The notes beneath the pieces were generated by a model, which made no database searches, had not been told where the DNA came from, and saw only the letters and a list, made by a program, of their open reading frames with translations. The translations under genes were made by a program, and so were the position numbers. From NCBI GenBank assembly GCA_947473805.1, contig CANJGB010000029.1:1-42330 (forward strand): a stretch of DNA of 42,330 nucleotides, written 5' to 3'. The stretch is from Alphaproteobacteria bacterium (GTDB lineage Bacteria; Pseudomonadota; Alphaproteobacteria; Ferrovibrionales; Ferrovibrionaceae). Each line of letters starts with the position of its first letter. The first letter of the stretch is position 1. This document shows, piece after piece, positions 1,570-21,653 of this stretch.

Positions 1570-2892
1570 CTAGTAGGCATGGGCGCCGTGGGCGCCAAGC
1601 GTGATGGTGTATTGCAGGAGGTATTGGTCGTCCGGCTCGGTGCGCGACTGGTCGCGGTTGTACTGAAGGCGGAAACGGCCGAATTCACTGGTGTTGTATT
1701 CCAGTATGACGCTGTTGCGTTTGGGCGAGGCGTCCATGTTGTCCAGCACGCTGCCGGCCAGTGCGACGTCAACCGCCGAGGCTTCGACCTGGTCATGCCG
1801 CAGGCCCACGCGCCATTGCGGCATGAACTGATAGACCGCCTGCGCGTACCAGCCGGTCTGGGTGCCTGAATAGGCAAGTGTGTTGAACTCGCCGTTCTCG
1901 CGCCGGTAAAAATACTCGCCCTGCAACTTCAGGTTCGTGTTCACCGGATTTCCGCCCGGCGCCCATTTGTAGACGAGATCGACAATGCCGGTGTCGGCGC
2001 GCCCGGAATAGATATCCGGCCCCGTCGCGCGGTCGTGCGCCAGGCTGCGCAGGTAAGACAGGCCGCCGCGCACGCTGTGGCTTTCGCCGATATCCGTGCC
2101 CGCATGGGCGAAGCCGCTGAACTGCCCTGCGCCGCGATTGTCGGCGCCGCCAGCCGGGAAGCTGTCGCCGCGCAAGGCTTCACCGCCGAATTCGAGGAAG
2201 AAGTCGGTCGGCGCCAGCCAGCGCAACTGCACGCCGTCATCGCCCAGTTGTCCTCCCAGGAACGCGCGATAGGGCAGGGCGGTATCGGCGAAGTCCCAGA
2301 CATGGGCATGCTGCTCGTTCATATAGCCGATGCCCGAGAAGAACCGTCCGCCCTTTACCGTGAAACCCCAGGGCAGGCCGGTGCTTTGCAGGTAGGCTTC
2401 TTCGACCGACACTTCCCCATTGCCTTCGACGGCGATGGTGACGTTGCCGTACAGCACCTGGTCGACACTGGCGGAGAAGTTGACCTCTGACTCGCCGATG
2501 GCGAAGCCGCGGTCAGGCAGCCCGGCCTCAGCGCCGAGCGCGAACCCGGGCATACGGTAGTTGCCAGGGTCTTTCTTGTAGGCGGCATACTTGCCGTCCA
2601 AAACCACGCCAATGGCTGGATTGAAGGCACTGGCCGAGCTGCTGGACGAAGCCGGTGGCCGTGGCGACGTTGCCTGCGTCGCTGTCGTCTTCGCTTCAGT
2701 CGCTTTTAGCCGTCCTTCCAGCGATTGCAGCCGTGCTTCGTATTCCCGGCGCATTTTGTCCAGCGAAGCATCGTATTTCTGTTTCATTTCGTGCAATTCG
2801 CGGCGCACCGCGGCGGTGTCGGATTGGGCCAGCGCAGGCGTGCTGAGCAGCAGTGCCGCTGCGAGGGAAACGGGTCGTGACAGGGGATGCAT
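1570..2892 (-). CDS. Outer-membrane beta-barrel protein with N-terminal coiled coil, zinc operon
   Basis: A 440-aa protein with a signal peptide (residues 1-22, ending PALAQ), a charged segment at about 27-70 that looks like a coiled coil (RRELHEMKQKY, then LEGRLKATEA), and a low-complexity Ser/Pro/Ala linker near 75-90. The rest is rich in alternating aromatic and polar strands with Gly-containing turns (GRFFSGIGYMNEQHAH, LQGEYFYRRENG, WYAQAVYQFMPQWRVGLRHD), typical of a trimeric-porin-like barrel. The coiled-coil-plus-barrel layout resembles carbohydrate and phosphate porins. No TonB box or plug domain is visible, so it is not a ZnuD-type receptor. Position between a DUF2946 gene and znuA suggests passage of zinc or a zinc complex through the outer membrane. 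The substrate is inferred only from context. Confidence 0.7.
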   Translation of the reverse strand: MHPLSRPVSLAAALLLSTPALAQSDTAAVRRELHEMKQKYDASLDKMRREYEARLQSLEGRLKATEAKTTATQATSPRPPASSSSSASAFNPAIGVVLDGKYAAYKKDPGNYRMPGFALGAEAGLPDRGFAIGESEVNFSASVDQVLYGNVTIAVEGNGEVSVEEAYLQSTGLPWGFTVKGGRFFSGIGYMNEQHAHVWDFADTALPYRAFLGGQLGDDGVQLRWLAPTDFFLEFGGEALRGDSFPAGGADNRGAGQFSGFAHAGTDIGESHSVRGGLSYLRSLAHDRATGPDIYSGRADTGIVDLVYKWAPGGNPVNTNLKLQGEYFYRRENGEFNTLAYSGTQTGWYAQAVYQFMPQWRVGLRHDQVEASAVDVALAGSVLDNMDASPKRNSVILEYNTSEFGRFRLQYNRDQSRTEPDDQYLLQYTITLGAHGAHAY

Positions 2893-2943
2893 CTCGAAAC
2901 TCCAAAAATACCGGGCAGCGCCCGGTTTGGAGCCGGACGCGAA

Positions 2944-3306
2944 TCAGATCGGAATGGCGGCGTCGGGGGTTGGCGGCCCGCGCGAGCGGACGGCAATGGC
3001 CGGGGCTGGCAGGGCGAACGTTTCGGTCCAAACGGCGTGGACCGGAGTGGCCTGCAACAGGGGAAGAACGACAGAGTCCGGCACCACGCCGTGCGCGGCG
3101 AGCCTCAGGCCGAGGCAAATCGGGCAATTGTCCCCGTCGTCAGAATCGGCAGGCTGGCCAGAACCATCGCATGCCGTGGGGGCAGCGCAGGCTACAGTAA
3201 GCCGGTGATTTTCAACCGGCAGATGGCCATGATGGTGGACCGCGCCCAGGATGATCTGGAACAGGATCGCAACCAGTCCGGTCCAGTGGCCGCCGAAACG
3301 ACGCAC
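2944..3306 (-). CDS. DUF2946-family protein, first gene of the zinc operon
   Basis: A small secreted or membrane-anchored protein (120 aa from GTG 3306). It has an N-terminal hydrophobic segment (LVAILFQIILGAV), a His cluster HHHGH at 24-28, Cys40 and Cys46, a CPIC motif at 61-64, a second hydrophobic stretch, and a C-terminal RGPPTP. These match DUF2946, a family of unknown function often next to metal-uptake genes. GTG 3306 is preferred because AGGA lies 7 nt upstream and the operator then sits 28-49 nt upstream. A GTG at 3330 would add 8 residues but leave only 3 nt between operator and start. Metal binding by the His and Cys groups is plausible but unproven. Confidence 0.65.
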   Translation of the reverse strand: MRRFGGHWTGLVAILFQIILGAVHHHGHLPVENHRLTVACAAPTACDGSGQPADSDDGDNCPICLGLRLAAHGVVPDSVVLPLLQATPVHAVWTETFALPAPAIAVRSRGPPTPDAAIPI

Positions 3307-3333
3307 GAAGTCATCCTGCTGCAGAGACACGAT

Positions 3334-3355
3334 AATGGTACATTATAACATTTCA
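3334..3355. promoter_or_regulatory. Zur-like operator 1
   Basis: An AT-rich imperfect palindrome in GC-rich surroundings. On the minus strand its core reads TGTTATAATGTACCA, 13 of 15 matches to the symmetrical form TGTTATAATATAACA typical of Zur sites. It lies between the divergent DUF2946/OMP/znuA operon and the molybdoenzyme gene at 3391. It matches the site at 21632-21653 at 19 of 22 positions. Assignment to Zur, rather than another Fur-family regulator, comes from the genes it controls. Confidence 0.6.
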
Positions 3356-17681: not shown

Positions 17682-18695
17682 CTAGCGAAGCTGCAGGTCG
17701 TAGATCGCCGCCTCGCCGGTTTCGGTGCCGGCTGCCAGGAAACGACCGTCTGGTGACCAGGCCAGTGCACTGACCGGTGCGGTCAGGGCAACAGCCAGCG
17801 GCAAAATCTTCTTCTGTTCCGGATCGCCCACCTCGACATGGCCGTCGGCATAGCCGGCGGCGATCATCGACGCCTTCGGATGAGCGGCCACCATGGTGAC
17901 CATGACGTCCTCCTTGCGGCCGCTGAACTCCACCGGCGGCTTGCCCTGCGGCCCCTTGCCCACGAACGGCCAGCAGACGAATCCCGGCGCGCCCGACGAG
18001 ACCAGGAACTTGGCATCCGGCGTCCACGCCATCGCCTTCACCTTGGCCGGATAGCCCGACATCTGCATGTCGCTGCCGTCCGCCAAACGCCAGCAGTGCA
18101 GCGCCATTTCCTGCATCGAACTGGCGAGGAAGCGTCCGCCTGGCGCGTAGCTGAGGTAGAGGTGCGATCCCTTCCAGGGCAGCTTGCGCGGCGGCGTTGC
18201 CGGCTGCTGCAGGTTCCAGATCATCACGCCGCCGTAATGCGCGCCGGCGATGCGGCTGCCATCCGGGCTGAACACCGCGTCGCTGACCGTGGTGGGGCAG
18301 GGGCCGAGACGCAGCGGTTCCGCACCGCCCAGCAGATGGATCTCCTTGCCGACCGGTGCGGCGATCAGGCCGGTTACCGGGTGCGCGGACAGGCGCTCGA
18401 TCCAGCGGCCCTTGAGCACCAGCAGTTCAGTGACGGCGCCATCGGGCGTGACGCGGCACAGGCGGCCATCGTCGCCGCCGGTCAGGAACGCGCCGTTCTT
18501 GATGTCCAACGCGAACGACAGGGCTGCGCCTTTGTGCACGGCGATGGTCTTTTCAACCTCGCCGATCACGCGCAACGTGCCGTCGCCGACCGCGAAGCCA
18601 AACGTGTTGCTCTTCGGTTCGAACCCGATGCCCGAGACATAGGCGTCGAAGCGGAACTCGCGCGGCGGCGCGAGGTTTTTCGGTGCGGCCGTCAT
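17682..18695 (-). CDS. WD40-repeat protein of the zinc operon
   Basis: A 337-aa protein without signal peptide, made of WD40-like blades. Blade signatures include VSDAVFSPDGSRIAGAHYGG, VKAMAWTPDAKFLVSSG and VSALAWSPDGRFLAAGTETG; about six or seven blades fit, giving a cytoplasmic beta-propeller. It starts 2 nt after the stop of the COG0523 GTPase gene, so the two are translationally coupled. Pairing of a COG0523 GTPase with a WD40 protein occurs in other alphaproteobacteria and suggests that the propeller is a partner or client in zinc handling. No catalytic residues are visible and a biochemical role is unknown. Confidence 0.8.
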   Translation of the reverse strand: MTAAPKNLAPPREFRFDAYVSGIGFEPKSNTFGFAVGDGTLRVIGEVEKTIAVHKGAALSFALDIKNGAFLTGGDDGRLCRVTPDGAVTELLVLKGRWIERLSAHPVTGLIAAPVGKEIHLLGGAEPLRLGPCPTTVSDAVFSPDGSRIAGAHYGGVMIWNLQQPATPPRKLPWKGSHLYLSYAPGGRFLASSMQEMALHCWRLADGSDMQMSGYPAKVKAMAWTPDAKFLVSSGAPGFVCWPFVGKGPQGKPPVEFSGRKEDVMVTMVAAHPKASMIAAGYADGHVEVGDPEQKKILPLAVALTAPVSALAWSPDGRFLAAGTETGEAAIYDLQLR

Positions 18696-18697
18696 GG

Positions 18698-19768
18698 TCA
18701 GGCCTTGCAGGCCGCGAAGCCGCTCTGCAGCGCGGGAATGTCGAGGTCGCGGCCTATGAACACCATCTTGCTGCCGCGCTTCGCATCGCCCCAGGGCTGG
18801 CCGGCGCTGGAATCCATGATCATGTGCACGGCCTGGAAGACGTAGCGCTTGTCCATGCCCTTCACCGCCATGACGCCCTTGCTGCGCAAAATCTTCTGGC
18901 CCTGCTCGCGCAGCAGGGCGCCGATCCACGCCTCGAACTTCTTGGGATCGATGTCGCCATCGACCGTCACCGACACGCTCTTGATCGTGGTGTCGTGGTC
19001 GTGCGCCAGCACCTTCAGGCCACCCGTGGTCTCGGTATACAGGGCGCGGCCGTCCTCGTCGTGATGATGGTCGTGGTCGTGATCATGGTGGTGGTCATGA
19101 TCGTGATCGTGGTGATGATGGCCGTGTTCTTCCTCCAGGAAGTCCGGCTCCACGGTCAGGATGCGGGCCAGGTCGAACGCGCCGCGGTTCAGGATCGCAT
19201 CCAGTGCGATCTCGCTGTTCCGCGTGTGGTGGATCTTGGCAAACTTGTTGATCCGGCGGATCGCCGCCTCGACCTGCGCCAGCTCCTTCGCGTCTACCAG
19301 GTCGGTCTTGTTCAGCAGGATCACGTCGGCGAAGGCGACCTGGTCCTCGGCCTCGTTGCTGTCGGCCAGGCGCTGCAGGAAGTGCTTGGCGTCCACCACG
19401 GTGATGATGGCGTCCAGCTTGGTGCGCGCCTTCACGTCATCGTCCATGAAGAAGGTCTGCGCTACTGGCGCCGGATCGGCCAGACCCGTAGTCTCGATAA
19501 TCATGCCGTCCAGCTTGTCGGACCGCTTCATCAGGCTGCCGATGATGCGGATCAGGTCGCCGCGCACGGTGCAGCAGATACAGCCGTTGTTGGTCTCGAA
19601 GATTTCCTCGTCCGCGCCCACCACCAGGTCGGCATCGACCCCGGCCTCGCCGAACTCGTTGATGATGACCGCGTACTTCTTGCCGTGGTTCTCGGTCAGG
19701 ATGCGGTTCAGCAAGGTGGTCTTGCCGGCGCCCAGATAGCCGGTCAGAACGGTCACCGGAATCGACAT
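18698..19768 (-). CDS. COG0523 (CobW/Zng1-like) GTPase, His-rich zinc chaperone
   Basis: G3E-family GTPase, 356 aa. It has Walker [10 protein letters not shown] (10-18), the metal-binding motif GCICC (Cys63, Cys65, Cys66), [10 protein letters not shown], and NKTD (153-156). Residues 214-239 are almost only His, Asp and Glu, with over ten His, and precede the C-terminal CobW domain (about 245-350). COG0523 proteins deliver metals to target enzymes; those next to znu genes and with His-rich inserts are zinc chaperones for low-zinc conditions, whereas true CobW lies with cobalamin genes, absent here. ATG 19768 has AAGGAG at a good distance. It is third of the znuC-znuB-GTPase-WD40 genes, behind Zur-like operator 2. 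Confidence 0.85.
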
Positions 19769-19882: not shown

Positions 19883-20755
19883 TTAGGCTTCCAGATGCCG
19901 GTGGCGGCGACGCCGTCGAATAATGCCTCCGACCGGCCCACACAATACTGAAATCACGTACAGGATGCCGGCCGCTAGCACGATGGCCGGCCCGGTCGGC
20001 AATTCCCAGTGGAACGACAGGACCAGCCCGGTCCAGGCCGCCAGCAGCGCGATGCCCGCCGCGTATATTGCGATCCGCCCAACCGACCCGGCCCAGAACC
20101 GCGCCGCTGCCGCCGGCAGCATCATCAGCCCCACGGCCATCAGCGTGCCCAGCGCCTGGAACGCCGCGACGAGGTTCAGTACCGTCAGCACCAGGAAAAT
20201 GCCGTGGTACAGGCCGCCCCGGCCATCGACTGTGCGCAGGAAGTCAGGGTCAAGCATTTCCGCCACCAGCGGCCGGAAGATCAGCGCCAAGGCGCATAGC
20301 GTTATGCTCGTAACCCCGCCGATCAGCAGCAGGCCGGCATCGTCCACCGCCAGTACCGAACCGAACAGCACGTTCATCAGGTCGATGCTCGGGCCGCGCG
20401 CCGAGATCAGCAGCACGCCGGCCGCCAGCGAGATCAGGTAGAAGGCGGCGAAGCTGGCGTCCTCGCGCAGCGGCGTGAAGCGCGTGACCACGCCGGCCAA
20501 CAGTGCAACTGCGATGCCCGCCGCGAAGCCGCCAATCGTCATTGCCCCCAGCGACAGGCCGAACAGGGTGTAACCGATGGCTGCGCCCGGCAGGATCGCG
20601 TGGCTCAACGCATCACCCATCAGGCTCATCCGCCGCAGCACCAGGAACACGCCAATCGGCGCGCAGCCCAAAGCGAGGCCAAGGCAGGCAATCAACGCCC
20701 GCTTCATGAAAGCGAACTCGATGAAGGGTGAGATGGCGAAATCGTAGAATGTCAC
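19883..20755 (-). CDS. znuB: Zinc ABC transporter permease (ZnuB-like)
   Basis: ABC-3 family permease of 290 aa with seven or eight hydrophobic helices. Family marks include GVFLVLRRMSLMGDALSHAILPGAAIGY, DLMNVLFGSVLAV and FQALGTLMAVGLMMLPAAAARFW. The start is GTG at 20755, two bases after the znuC stop, because homologues begin with the Y-D-x-x-I-x-PF-EF-FM-RAL stretch encoded there; ATG 20671 would lose it. The protein ends with a basic, His-containing tail (GGIIRRRRRHRHLEA). It is intact, unlike the permease at the left edge of the window. Zinc specificity is inferred from the operator and the downstream zinc-chaperone-type gene. Confidence 0.85.
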   Translation of the reverse strand: MTFYDFAISPFIEFAFMKRALIACLGLALGCAPIGVFLVLRRMSLMGDALSHAILPGAAIGYTLFGLSLGAMTIGGFAAGIAVALLAGVVTRFTPLREDASFAAFYLISLAAGVLLISARGPSIDLMNVLFGSVLAVDDAGLLLIGGVTSITLCALALIFRPLVAEMLDPDFLRTVDGRGGLYHGIFLVLTVLNLVAAFQALGTLMAVGLMMLPAAAARFWAGSVGRIAIYAAGIALLAAWTGLVLSFHWELPTGPAIVLAAGILYVISVLCGPVGGIIRRRRRHRHLEA

Positions 20756-20757
20756 GA

Positions 20758-21489
20758 TCAGGCCGCGCACCAGCTGGCATCGTCGCGCCACGCCTCGGCC
20801 AGGTGGCCGGTAGCCACGCCGTTCTCCGCCAATGTCGCAACCGTCGGTCCCCAGGCGACGCAGCGCCGCGCCAGCAGCAGCATCTGGTCAAAGCCGGCGC
20901 GCACCTGCGCCAGGTCGTGCAGCACCGCGATCACCGTGCGGCCCTCGGTCCGCCAGCCGGCGATCAGGCGCAGCAGGTCGCCAATGGTGGCGTCGTCGAC
21001 ACCGTTAAACGGTTCGTCCAGCAGGATCAGCGGGCAGTTCTGCACCAGCAGGCGGGCGAACAGCATGCGCTGGAACTGGCCGACCGACAGTGTGCCGATC
21101 TGCCGCCCGGCGAAACCTTCGAGGCTGACGGCGGCGAGTGCCGCCTCAGCTTGGGCCCGCTCGGCGCGACCTAGGCCGAGGAAGCCGCCGCGCCGGGCCC
21201 AGTGTCCCATCAGCACGACATCCAGCACGGTGATGGGGAAGGTCCGGTCGATGGTCGCGTTCTGCGGCAGGTAGGCGACCCGACGCCGCTCCACACCCAA
21301 ATCGATCCGGCCCTCGTCCGGTGGCCGCAGCCCGGCAATGGCCTGCAGCAGCGTGCTCTTGCCGGCGCCGTTGGGGCCGAGAATCGCGGTCTGCGCCCCG
21401 GCCAGGAACGTGCCGCTGACGTGATGTACGGCCGGGTGGCCATCATAGGCGATGGTGACGTCATGCAGCTGGACGGCAGGCCCGGTCAT
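20758..21489 (-). CDS. znuC: Zinc ABC transporter ATP-binding protein (ZnuC-like)
   Basis: Cytoplasmic ATPase of 243 aa. Walker A is GPNGAGKST (38-46), the Q-loop is YLPQNATIDRTFPITVLDVV, the signature is LSVGQ (134-138; the canonical form is LSGGQ), Walker B is LILLDEP (154-160) and the switch His is His191. The Q-loop segment R-x-FPI-TVLDVV-MG is typical of metal importers of the ZnuC/MntB/TroB type. The start MTGPAVQLHDV (ATG 21489) lies 1 nt after the stop of a 44-codon upstream ORF. No metal-binding-protein gene is in this operon, so it must use one encoded elsewhere. Confidence 0.88.
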   Translation of the reverse strand: MTGPAVQLHDVTIAYDGHPAVHHVSGTFLAGAQTAILGPNGAGKSTLLQAIAGLRPPDEGRIDLGVERRRVAYLPQNATIDRTFPITVLDVVLMGHWARRGGFLGLGRAERAQAEAALAAVSLEGFAGRQIGTLSVGQFQRMLFARLLVQNCPLILLDEPFNGVDDATIGDLLRLIAGWRTEGRTVIAVLHDLAQVRAGFDQMLLLARRCVAWGPTVATLAENGVATGHLAEAWRDDASWCAA

Positions 21490-21490
21490 C

Positions 21491-21625
21491 TCAATACCAG
21501 CCCATGGCCCAGCCGATGGTCGCCCAGAAAGCCAGCGCCATGGCGCCGGCCGCAGCCAGCCGCCAGCGGGCATCCAGGGCAATGATCGAGGCGCGGGAAG
21601 GGGTGTCCATCACTGGTCCAGCCAT
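21491..21625 (-). CDS. Small ORF (44 aa), probable single-pass membrane peptide
   Basis: ATG 21625 to TGA 21491, ending 1 nt before the znuC start. The product begins MAGPVMDTPSRASIIALDAR, followed by a hydrophobic segment (LAAAGAMALAFWATIGWAMG) and a terminal WY. A polar start, one predicted helix and tight spacing to znuC suggest a translated leader gene. There is no clear ribosome binding site for ATG 21625, because Zur-like operator 2 ends only 6 nt upstream; the message may be leaderless, or translation may begin at ATG 21610. I know of no named family. Confidence 0.45.
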   Translation of the reverse strand: MAGPVMDTPSRASIIALDARWRLAAAGAMALAFWATIGWAMGWY

Positions 21626-21631
21626 GATTTC

Positions 21632-21653
21632 TGAAACGTTATACTATACCATT
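21632..21653. promoter_or_regulatory. Zur-like operator 2
   Basis: AT-rich imperfect palindrome; the plus strand reads GAAACGTTATACTATACC. On the opposite strand it agrees with operator 1 (3334-3355) at 19 of 22 positions. It lies immediately upstream of the small ORF and znuC, and about 80 bp upstream of the divergent bioY. A Zur dimer here would block the znuC-znuB-GTPase-WD40 operon when zinc is plentiful. Confidence 0.6.

Follow-up and report, generated by a model that had tools for sequence, protein, structure and literature searches.

The window, a stretch of 42,330 nucleotides from an alphaproteobacterium of the Ferrovibrionaceae, carries on its minus strand a Zur-like box followed by a 44-aa ORF, a zinc-type ABC ATPase, an ABC-3 permease, a COG0523/CobW-type GTPase and a WD40 protein, in that order (Table 1). 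The two transporter genes score just short of the curated importer models, the permease reaching 259.6 against a cut-off of 280 for AztB and the ATPase 211 against 220 for AztA. The permease and GTPase genes are separated by 114 nt, and a simple scan of this interval on the minus strand, which is weak evidence, found no terminator- or promoter-like site. At the next junction the GTPase stop and the WD40 start lie 2 nt apart (TGA-CC-ATG), as the first-pass annotation had stated; AAGG precedes the WD40 ATG and AAGGAG the GTPase ATG. Its description of the locus as a zinc operon also fits, in the sense of a putative operon, given the same-strand AztA/AztB-like genes and the Zur-like box, and the genes are presumably co-transcribed.

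Table 1. Features of the GTPase-WD40 gene cluster and of a second Zur-like box, in window coordinates
Feature	Position	Strand	Remarks
COG0523/CobW-type GTPase, 356 aa	18698..19768	-	GxxGxGKT P-loop, GCICC (residues 62-66), ETTG, NKTD, CobW_C
WD40 protein, 337 aa	17682..18695	-	predicted to be an eight-bladed propeller (strand count)
His/Asp/Glu run of GTPase, residues 214-239	19052..19129	-	15 His, 10 Asp/Glu; variable across family
GCICC metal motif of GTPase, residues 62-66	19571..19585	-	cysteines invariant in GTPase alignment
Zinc-type ABC permease, ABC-3, AztB-like	19883..20755	-	just below curated cut-off
Zinc-type ABC ATPase, AztA-like	20758..21489	-	just below curated cut-off
44-aa ORF, one hydrophobic stretch, directly before ABC ATPase	21491..21625	-	similar ORFs at other loci
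Zur-like palindrome ATGGTATAGTATAACGT, 2 mismatches to ATGTTATANTATAACAT	21636..21652	.	head of gene cluster
Second Zur-like box, 2 mismatches	3335..3351	.	upstream of DUF2946 ORF and porin-like ORF

The GTPase (Pfam cobW, 1.1e-59; CobW_C, 5.8e-26) has the P-loop, the GCxCC motif between Walker A and B and the CobW_C domain of a COG0523/CobW-type G3E GTPase, its versions of the motifs being GCICC and NKTD. It is not an equivalog of ZigA, CobW or YjiA (PRK11537), as it misses all three NCBIfam cut-offs (201.6 against 600, 191.4 against 332.1 and 220.1 against 361). A sequence search of the PDB at E ≤ 0.001 returned YjiA sequences only.

The gene clusters that hold prokaryotic members of COG0523 subfamily 5 contain genes for WD40-repeat proteins, znuABC and creatinases, and several of these members lie behind predicted Zur sites (Haas et al., 2009; PMC2770081). 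It is also the subfamily of most eukaryotic COG0523 homologues (PMC2770081). The window combines the GTPase, the WD40 gene, zinc ABC genes and a Zur-like box, so that its GTPase is placed in subfamily 5, as defined in PMC2770081, by gene neighbourhood rather than by a tree with eukaryotic members. The link between the two genes was therefore already noticed in outline in 2009; in the parts of that paper used here, the WD40 genes receive one sentence, with no role proposed. A literature search, mostly of sources other than subscription journals, found no study of the WD40 partner, and only PMC2770081, among texts seen in part, ties cytosolic-type WD40 genes to COG0523.

Short ORFs of the type that opens the cluster precede ABC ATPases at other loci (L146, 2285-2485; L147, 9883-10056, minus strand; L077, 3677-3916; L051, 13429-13647, minus strand; L058, 4331-4456; L161, 2230-2367). 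They are about 32-87 aa long, with uncertain starts, and share one hydrophobic stretch of the RL...LW.AV.WAL type; in four versions the N-terminus is His-rich (6-13 His). When 56 ABC ATPases were scanned with a sequence pattern, 21 candidates emerged, 19 of them convincing by eye, and the seven that were searched had no significant Pfam or NCBIfam match. Such an ORF possibly encodes an unannotated importer subunit.

Zur-like sites in the genome and at related loci

The genome of the window was scanned with up to three mismatches against ATGTTATANTATAACAT, which is taken here to be the alphaproteobacterial Zur motif. Four sites were found, compared with one for a reversed control. One is flanked by a hisI-like gene recognized by eye and by a Fur-family gene, a family with three members in this genome; the second heads the GTPase-WD40 cluster, the third is the other box in the window, and the fourth stands upstream of a gene for a binding protein of the ZnuA family (Pfam 2.6e-74). 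Because a Zur-like box heads the cluster and is one of only four such sites against one in the control, the cluster is very probably a member of the Zur regulon. Behind the other box of the window (1570-3351 overall) are a DUF2946 ORF (2944-3330, minus strand) and a porin-like ORF (1570-2892, minus strand), the latter named by eye and having no convincing Pfam family; these two likely form a further zinc-uptake unit.

Among related loci in which the pair is linked, a site with at most three mismatches occurs in 18 of the 49 with at least 3 kb of upstream sequence, against 1.4% in resampled sequences, and such a site is carried by 29 of 65 GTDB loci. A recognizable box is thus common, not universal, among linked loci. 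Where the two genes are apart, five of 12 GTPase genes have a box within 300 bp at up to five mismatches (resampled, 1.3%), four of these five in one family (f71). None of the 11 unlinked WD40 genes has one under the same settings, nor within 4.5 kb, and the WD40 protein can therefore be supplied without zinc control. The first-pass annotation had regarded expression of the WD40 gene independently of zinc status as telling against the coupling. The result for the WD40 genes that stand alone points partly in that direction and speaks against strict zinc co-regulation of the two genes.

Co-occurrence and paired divergence

That annotation had also proposed counting the gene pair across genomes, and the count shows that it is far from rarely conserved. 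In profile searches covering 378 genomes from the phylum, the GTPase clade is present in every one of the 60 genomes that have the WD40 family, and 60 of the 61 with the GTPase clade have the WD40 protein. A Fisher p for this association takes no account of relatedness and is disregarded. The WD40 count derives from 68 genomes with matches at E ≤ 1e-20, eight of which (best match 76-117 bits) were dropped as other WD40 proteins, and it takes no account of the second matches that G330, G348 and G440 have at 132-145 bits. For the GTPase, 130 genomes had matches at E ≤ 1e-60, and the clade comprises 58 genomes with at least 472 bits together with G455, G380 and G531, in which a split match scored 400-418 bits and the full ORF, re-scored, 516-534 bits; the line was drawn after the scores were known, unpaired full-length matches reaching 406.6 bits (G609). 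In a class-level set of 289 genomes, which overlaps in part with the phylum set and whose lists were read by eye, 43 genomes have both genes, one has the WD40 gene only, as a fragment on a 3.2-kb contig, and one has the GTPase only, at a contig edge. Here WD40 matches weaker than 1e-25 were dropped (G025, G125, G157, G184) and GTPases were counted at 56% identity or more; some match to the wider GTPase family occurs in 152 of the 289 (E ≤ 1e-10).

By match coordinates, the pair lies within 500 nt in 41 of the 60 genomes, within 3 kb in eight, and is unlinked in 11. The gap ranges from -35 to +25 nt in 32 of 41 same-locus pairs of the class-level set. Both genes are retained in all 11 unlinked genomes, one of which (G411) is a fragmented assembly; as eight of the 11 belong to family f71, the cases are not independent. 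Scanning GTDB with WD40 peptide patterns identified at least 578 candidate stretches that encode a relative at E ≤ 1e-3, and hundreds of species probably retain the partner. Among the best 80 of these, the GTPase is just upstream in 72, the contig ends in three and no GTPase is nearby in five. A search of genome contigs with the window WD40 protein as sole query gave no match.

Sixteen plasmid records carry the WD40 gene, and in nine of the 11 inspected the GTPase directly precedes it, among them records from Sinorhizobium meliloti (pSymB), Skermanella, Gemmobacter, Devosia, Paraburkholderia and Pantoea. Plasmids of Caballeronia zhejiangensis (L167) and Methylobacterium bullatum (L170) have a WD40 gene with no GTPase within 6 kb. 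On pSymB (L165), a creatininase-family gene lies directly before the pair; since creatininases are zinc enzymes, its product is a candidate client. On two Caballeronia plasmids (L166, L167) the WD40 gene precedes aromatic/alkene monooxygenase genes, recognized from the annotation in L167 and as BLAST relatives in L166. It is accompanied by the GTPase in L166 and stands without it in L167, where the upstream annotation includes an alcohol dehydrogenase; neither locus showed a Zur box at up to four mismatches.

Genes that lie between GTPase and WD40 at loci with a large gap were considered as a third partner and rejected, as none recurs across lineages: a DUF924-like gene (L061/L063, the only recurrence, among relatives), a HAD-like gene (L072) and a DUF1330-like gene (L075), all named by eye, and a Zn-ribbon gene (L056) named by Pfam. 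The neighbours of unlinked WD40 genes (DUF1275, a membrane protein) look like plain synteny inside one family.

The GTPases that accompany the WD40 protein also stand apart by sequence. Among the loci listed and scored as full ORFs against a clade profile, paired GTPases reach at least 462 bits, whereas the best GTPase of 20 non-partner loci reaches at most 404; the exceptions are L134 (502 bits, without WD40) and L168 (308 bits, with WD40, a truncated match). On a GTPase tree of 124 rows, a quick maximum-likelihood tree with SH-aLRT support only and several long branches, the WD40 label needs three changes compared with 30.7 in shuffles. Three loci without WD40 (L087, L091, L093) were labelled WD40-linked by default, and L180, also without WD40, groups with L087. 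The tree is compatible with one gain of the WD40 link and two losses.

Two genomes, G288 and G075, have two pairs each, one G075 pair (L083 and L089) having been joined by hand across two contig ends. Both the GTPases and the WD40 proteins group by pair type, not by genome: across genomes, the same pair type shares 78% and 86% identity in the GTPases and 65% and 81% in the WD40 proteins, against 56-57% and 32-34%, respectively, between pair types inside one genome. The distance matrices of the two proteins correlate with a Mantel coefficient of 0.87 over 82 pairs (85 less the truncated L041, L090 and L168), a value that shared descent alone can give, and the paralogue pairs are therefore the better argument.

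Judging by near-perfect co-occurrence, retention when unlinked and duplicates that diverge as pairs, it is very probable that the two proteins have a common function and work as a pair. The coupling proposed from the gene spacing thus stands as a functional link, while a protein complex is what we infer from it. Gene clusters can, as a general matter, persist through co-regulation and joint transfer, and two zinc-starvation genes might be kept together with no direct functional tie. This explanation is very improbable, as it accounts neither for the retention of both genes in all unlinked genomes nor for the paired divergence of the duplicates.

The His/Asp/Glu run noticed in the window GTPase is present as described, and a role as a zinc store is possible. 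The linker has at least eight His in 47 of 84 paired GTPases and at most three in 19 of them; the run is common, yet the partnership does not require it. Six GTPases (L053, L082, L084, L085, L152, L169), all adjacent to a WD40 gene of their own and about 445-450 aa long, have a far longer interdomain linker instead. Measured between Pfam domain ends in L053 and L085, it spans about 170 residues, against 82 for the window GTPase, and the extra stretch had no Pfam match in the two searched.

The clade is marked by 14 GTPase positions, among them D53, E55 and F57 just before GCICC and N153 within NKxD. These four would suit a propeller that regulates the GTPase as a GAP, a GEF or a zinc-sensing brake, tuning the GTP cycle rather than recruiting clients, and the same co-occurrence data would follow. 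The other ten positions lie elsewhere in the GTPase, and the parts of PMC6689063 used here describe WD40 proteins as serving interaction and scaffolding; such a regulator is accordingly unlikely.

The WD40 propeller and its conserved face

The window protein matches Pfam WD40 (1.5e-19) as a WD40 repeat propeller, has no NCBIfam match at E ≤ 0.1 and shows no hydrophobic or signal-like start at its N-terminus. An AlphaFold2 model built from 44 natural sequences (pLDDT 95.4, pTM 0.92) predicts eight blades, read from the DSSP string, with the N-terminal strand completing the last of them. The best fold match is 5naf_C (Z 37.9, rmsd 2.4, 319 aligned residues), and the top matches include TBL1XR1, Rsa4, ODA16, Tako8 and Fbw7 (Z 32-38, rmsd 2.2-3.0, 304-323 aligned). 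Other WD40 proteins rank lower, near Z 25. Tako8 is a designed, eight-bladed protein.

With blades, top and bottom assigned by hand from the DSSP string and WD40 topology, loops of the top face are more conserved than those of the bottom (0.48 over 76 positions versus 0.36 over 80; p 0.0003), and blades 4-6 are the most conserved part of the propeller. W98, Y154, Q195, Y215 and K218 are conserved beyond what are taken to be the usual structural positions of WD40 repeats, as is a GxGPxGKxP loop in blade 6. H54, D76, H178, E196, W160, W202 and W242 presumably lie where WD40 structural tetrads do, and owing to this overlap the conservation of the top face is not proof of an interface. In L065, L067 and L068, from one genus, H178, Q195 and H200 of the WD40 protein and C354 of the GTPase are all lost, possibly reflecting a decayed or changed interface. 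A general coupling of C354 to these WD40 residues was rejected, as L064, L146 and L209 lose C354 without those changes.

The conserved residues on or near the top loops include His 54, 153, 178 and 200 and acidic residues 75, 76 and 196. They raise the question, posed by the first-pass annotation, of whether the propeller is a docking platform or is itself a client, metal- or folding-dependent, that the GTPase activates as ZNG1 does METAP1. Strict co-occurrence would be expected of such a client, as would WD40 genes that stand without a Zur box where an unlinked GTPase can have one. A metal site on the propeller was nevertheless rejected, since several of the conserved His and acidic residues fall at likely structural tetrads and no conserved metal-ligand cluster remains beyond them; position 153 frequently carries R, T, Q, Y or C instead of His, and several insert-type pairs have L in place of H178. 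The distribution also runs opposite to what a sole client would produce. One genome, G326 (L134, contig C4), keeps a clade GTPase and yielded no WD40 protein of the window family in a whole-genome search or in the 17 kb around the gene, and the WD40 protein was not seen without the GTPase in the 60 genomes. As the GTPase is sometimes alone and the WD40 protein is not in these genomes, the asymmetry leans towards an accessory of the GTPase, and the client reading is rather doubtful. L134 constitutes a natural test of the GTPase working alone.

A putative adaptor for zinc transfer

The reading favoured here, at a probability of about one half, makes the WD40 protein a docking adaptor that works in the cytosol as the dedicated partner of a COG0523 GTPase responsive to zinc. 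It builds on gene order, the Zur-type box, co-occurrence, paired divergence, the predicted fold and top-face conservation, all computed here. The unlinked WD40 genes that have no Zur box, and the plasmid and GTDB loci with no GTPase near the WD40 gene, count against it. Under zinc starvation, Zur would release the gene cluster and the importer would take zinc into the cell. The GTPase would bind zinc at GCICC, here perhaps also at the His run, and transfer it onwards in a step that depends on GTP. The propeller would dock on the GTPase and serve as an adaptor that recruits or orients one or more zinc-requiring clients, the conserved top face (blades 2-6) being the likely binding surface.

For the GTPase, the best reading is by analogy a putative ZNG1-like zinc-transfer enzyme. 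ZNG1 is the zinc-transfer GTPase for METAP1 and belongs to a subfamily described as eukaryote-specific (PMC10642216). The two share COG0523 membership, CxCC, CobW_C and a link to poor zinc supply; they differ in this eukaryotic restriction and in the WD40 protein, which goes unmentioned in the main text of PMC10642216. A propeller is also found in AztD, the zinc chaperone of AztABCD, whose genes are often near CobW genes (Neupane et al., 2019; PMC6689063). Like the window protein, AztD is eight-bladed and tied to an AztAB-type importer, but it has two zinc sites and resides in the periplasm or bound to the surface (PMC6689063), whereas the window protein lacks a signal-like start. AztD identity, suggested by the Azt-like ABC genes and the propeller, was rejected: there is no NF038015 match, and the AztD model has no match in the window's own genome and matches in two of 14 control genomes. 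AztD chains are also absent among the 50 matches listed by each of two fold searches, which proves nothing.

CIAO1 has a targeting role in cofactor delivery. It is presumably set apart from the window protein by being eukaryotic, by serving iron-sulphur proteins and by having no COG0523 GTPase. The likeness, a WD40 propeller that would serve metal-cofactor delivery, is one of working only, CIAO1-type WD40 proteins being named in that context in PMC8469502.

A more specific version of the adaptor reading, offered tentatively and as the less probable of the two, is a two-subunit bacterial zinc insertase in which a COG0523 GTPase is joined by a near-obligate propeller that selects its clients. 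To our knowledge, no COG0523 GTPase has a defined adaptor. If true, the propeller would be the first, working on a logic like that of WD40 proteins that act as adaptors in iron-sulphur delivery. Because genomes almost always retain both genes, even unlinked, what was a single sentence on gene neighbourhood in 2009 becomes a strong functional prediction. Few COG0523 GTPases have known clients, and a dedicated, clade-linked partner whose structure is predicted with high confidence makes the client question directly testable; if the reading is correct, the propeller would offer a way to capture the bacterial clients.
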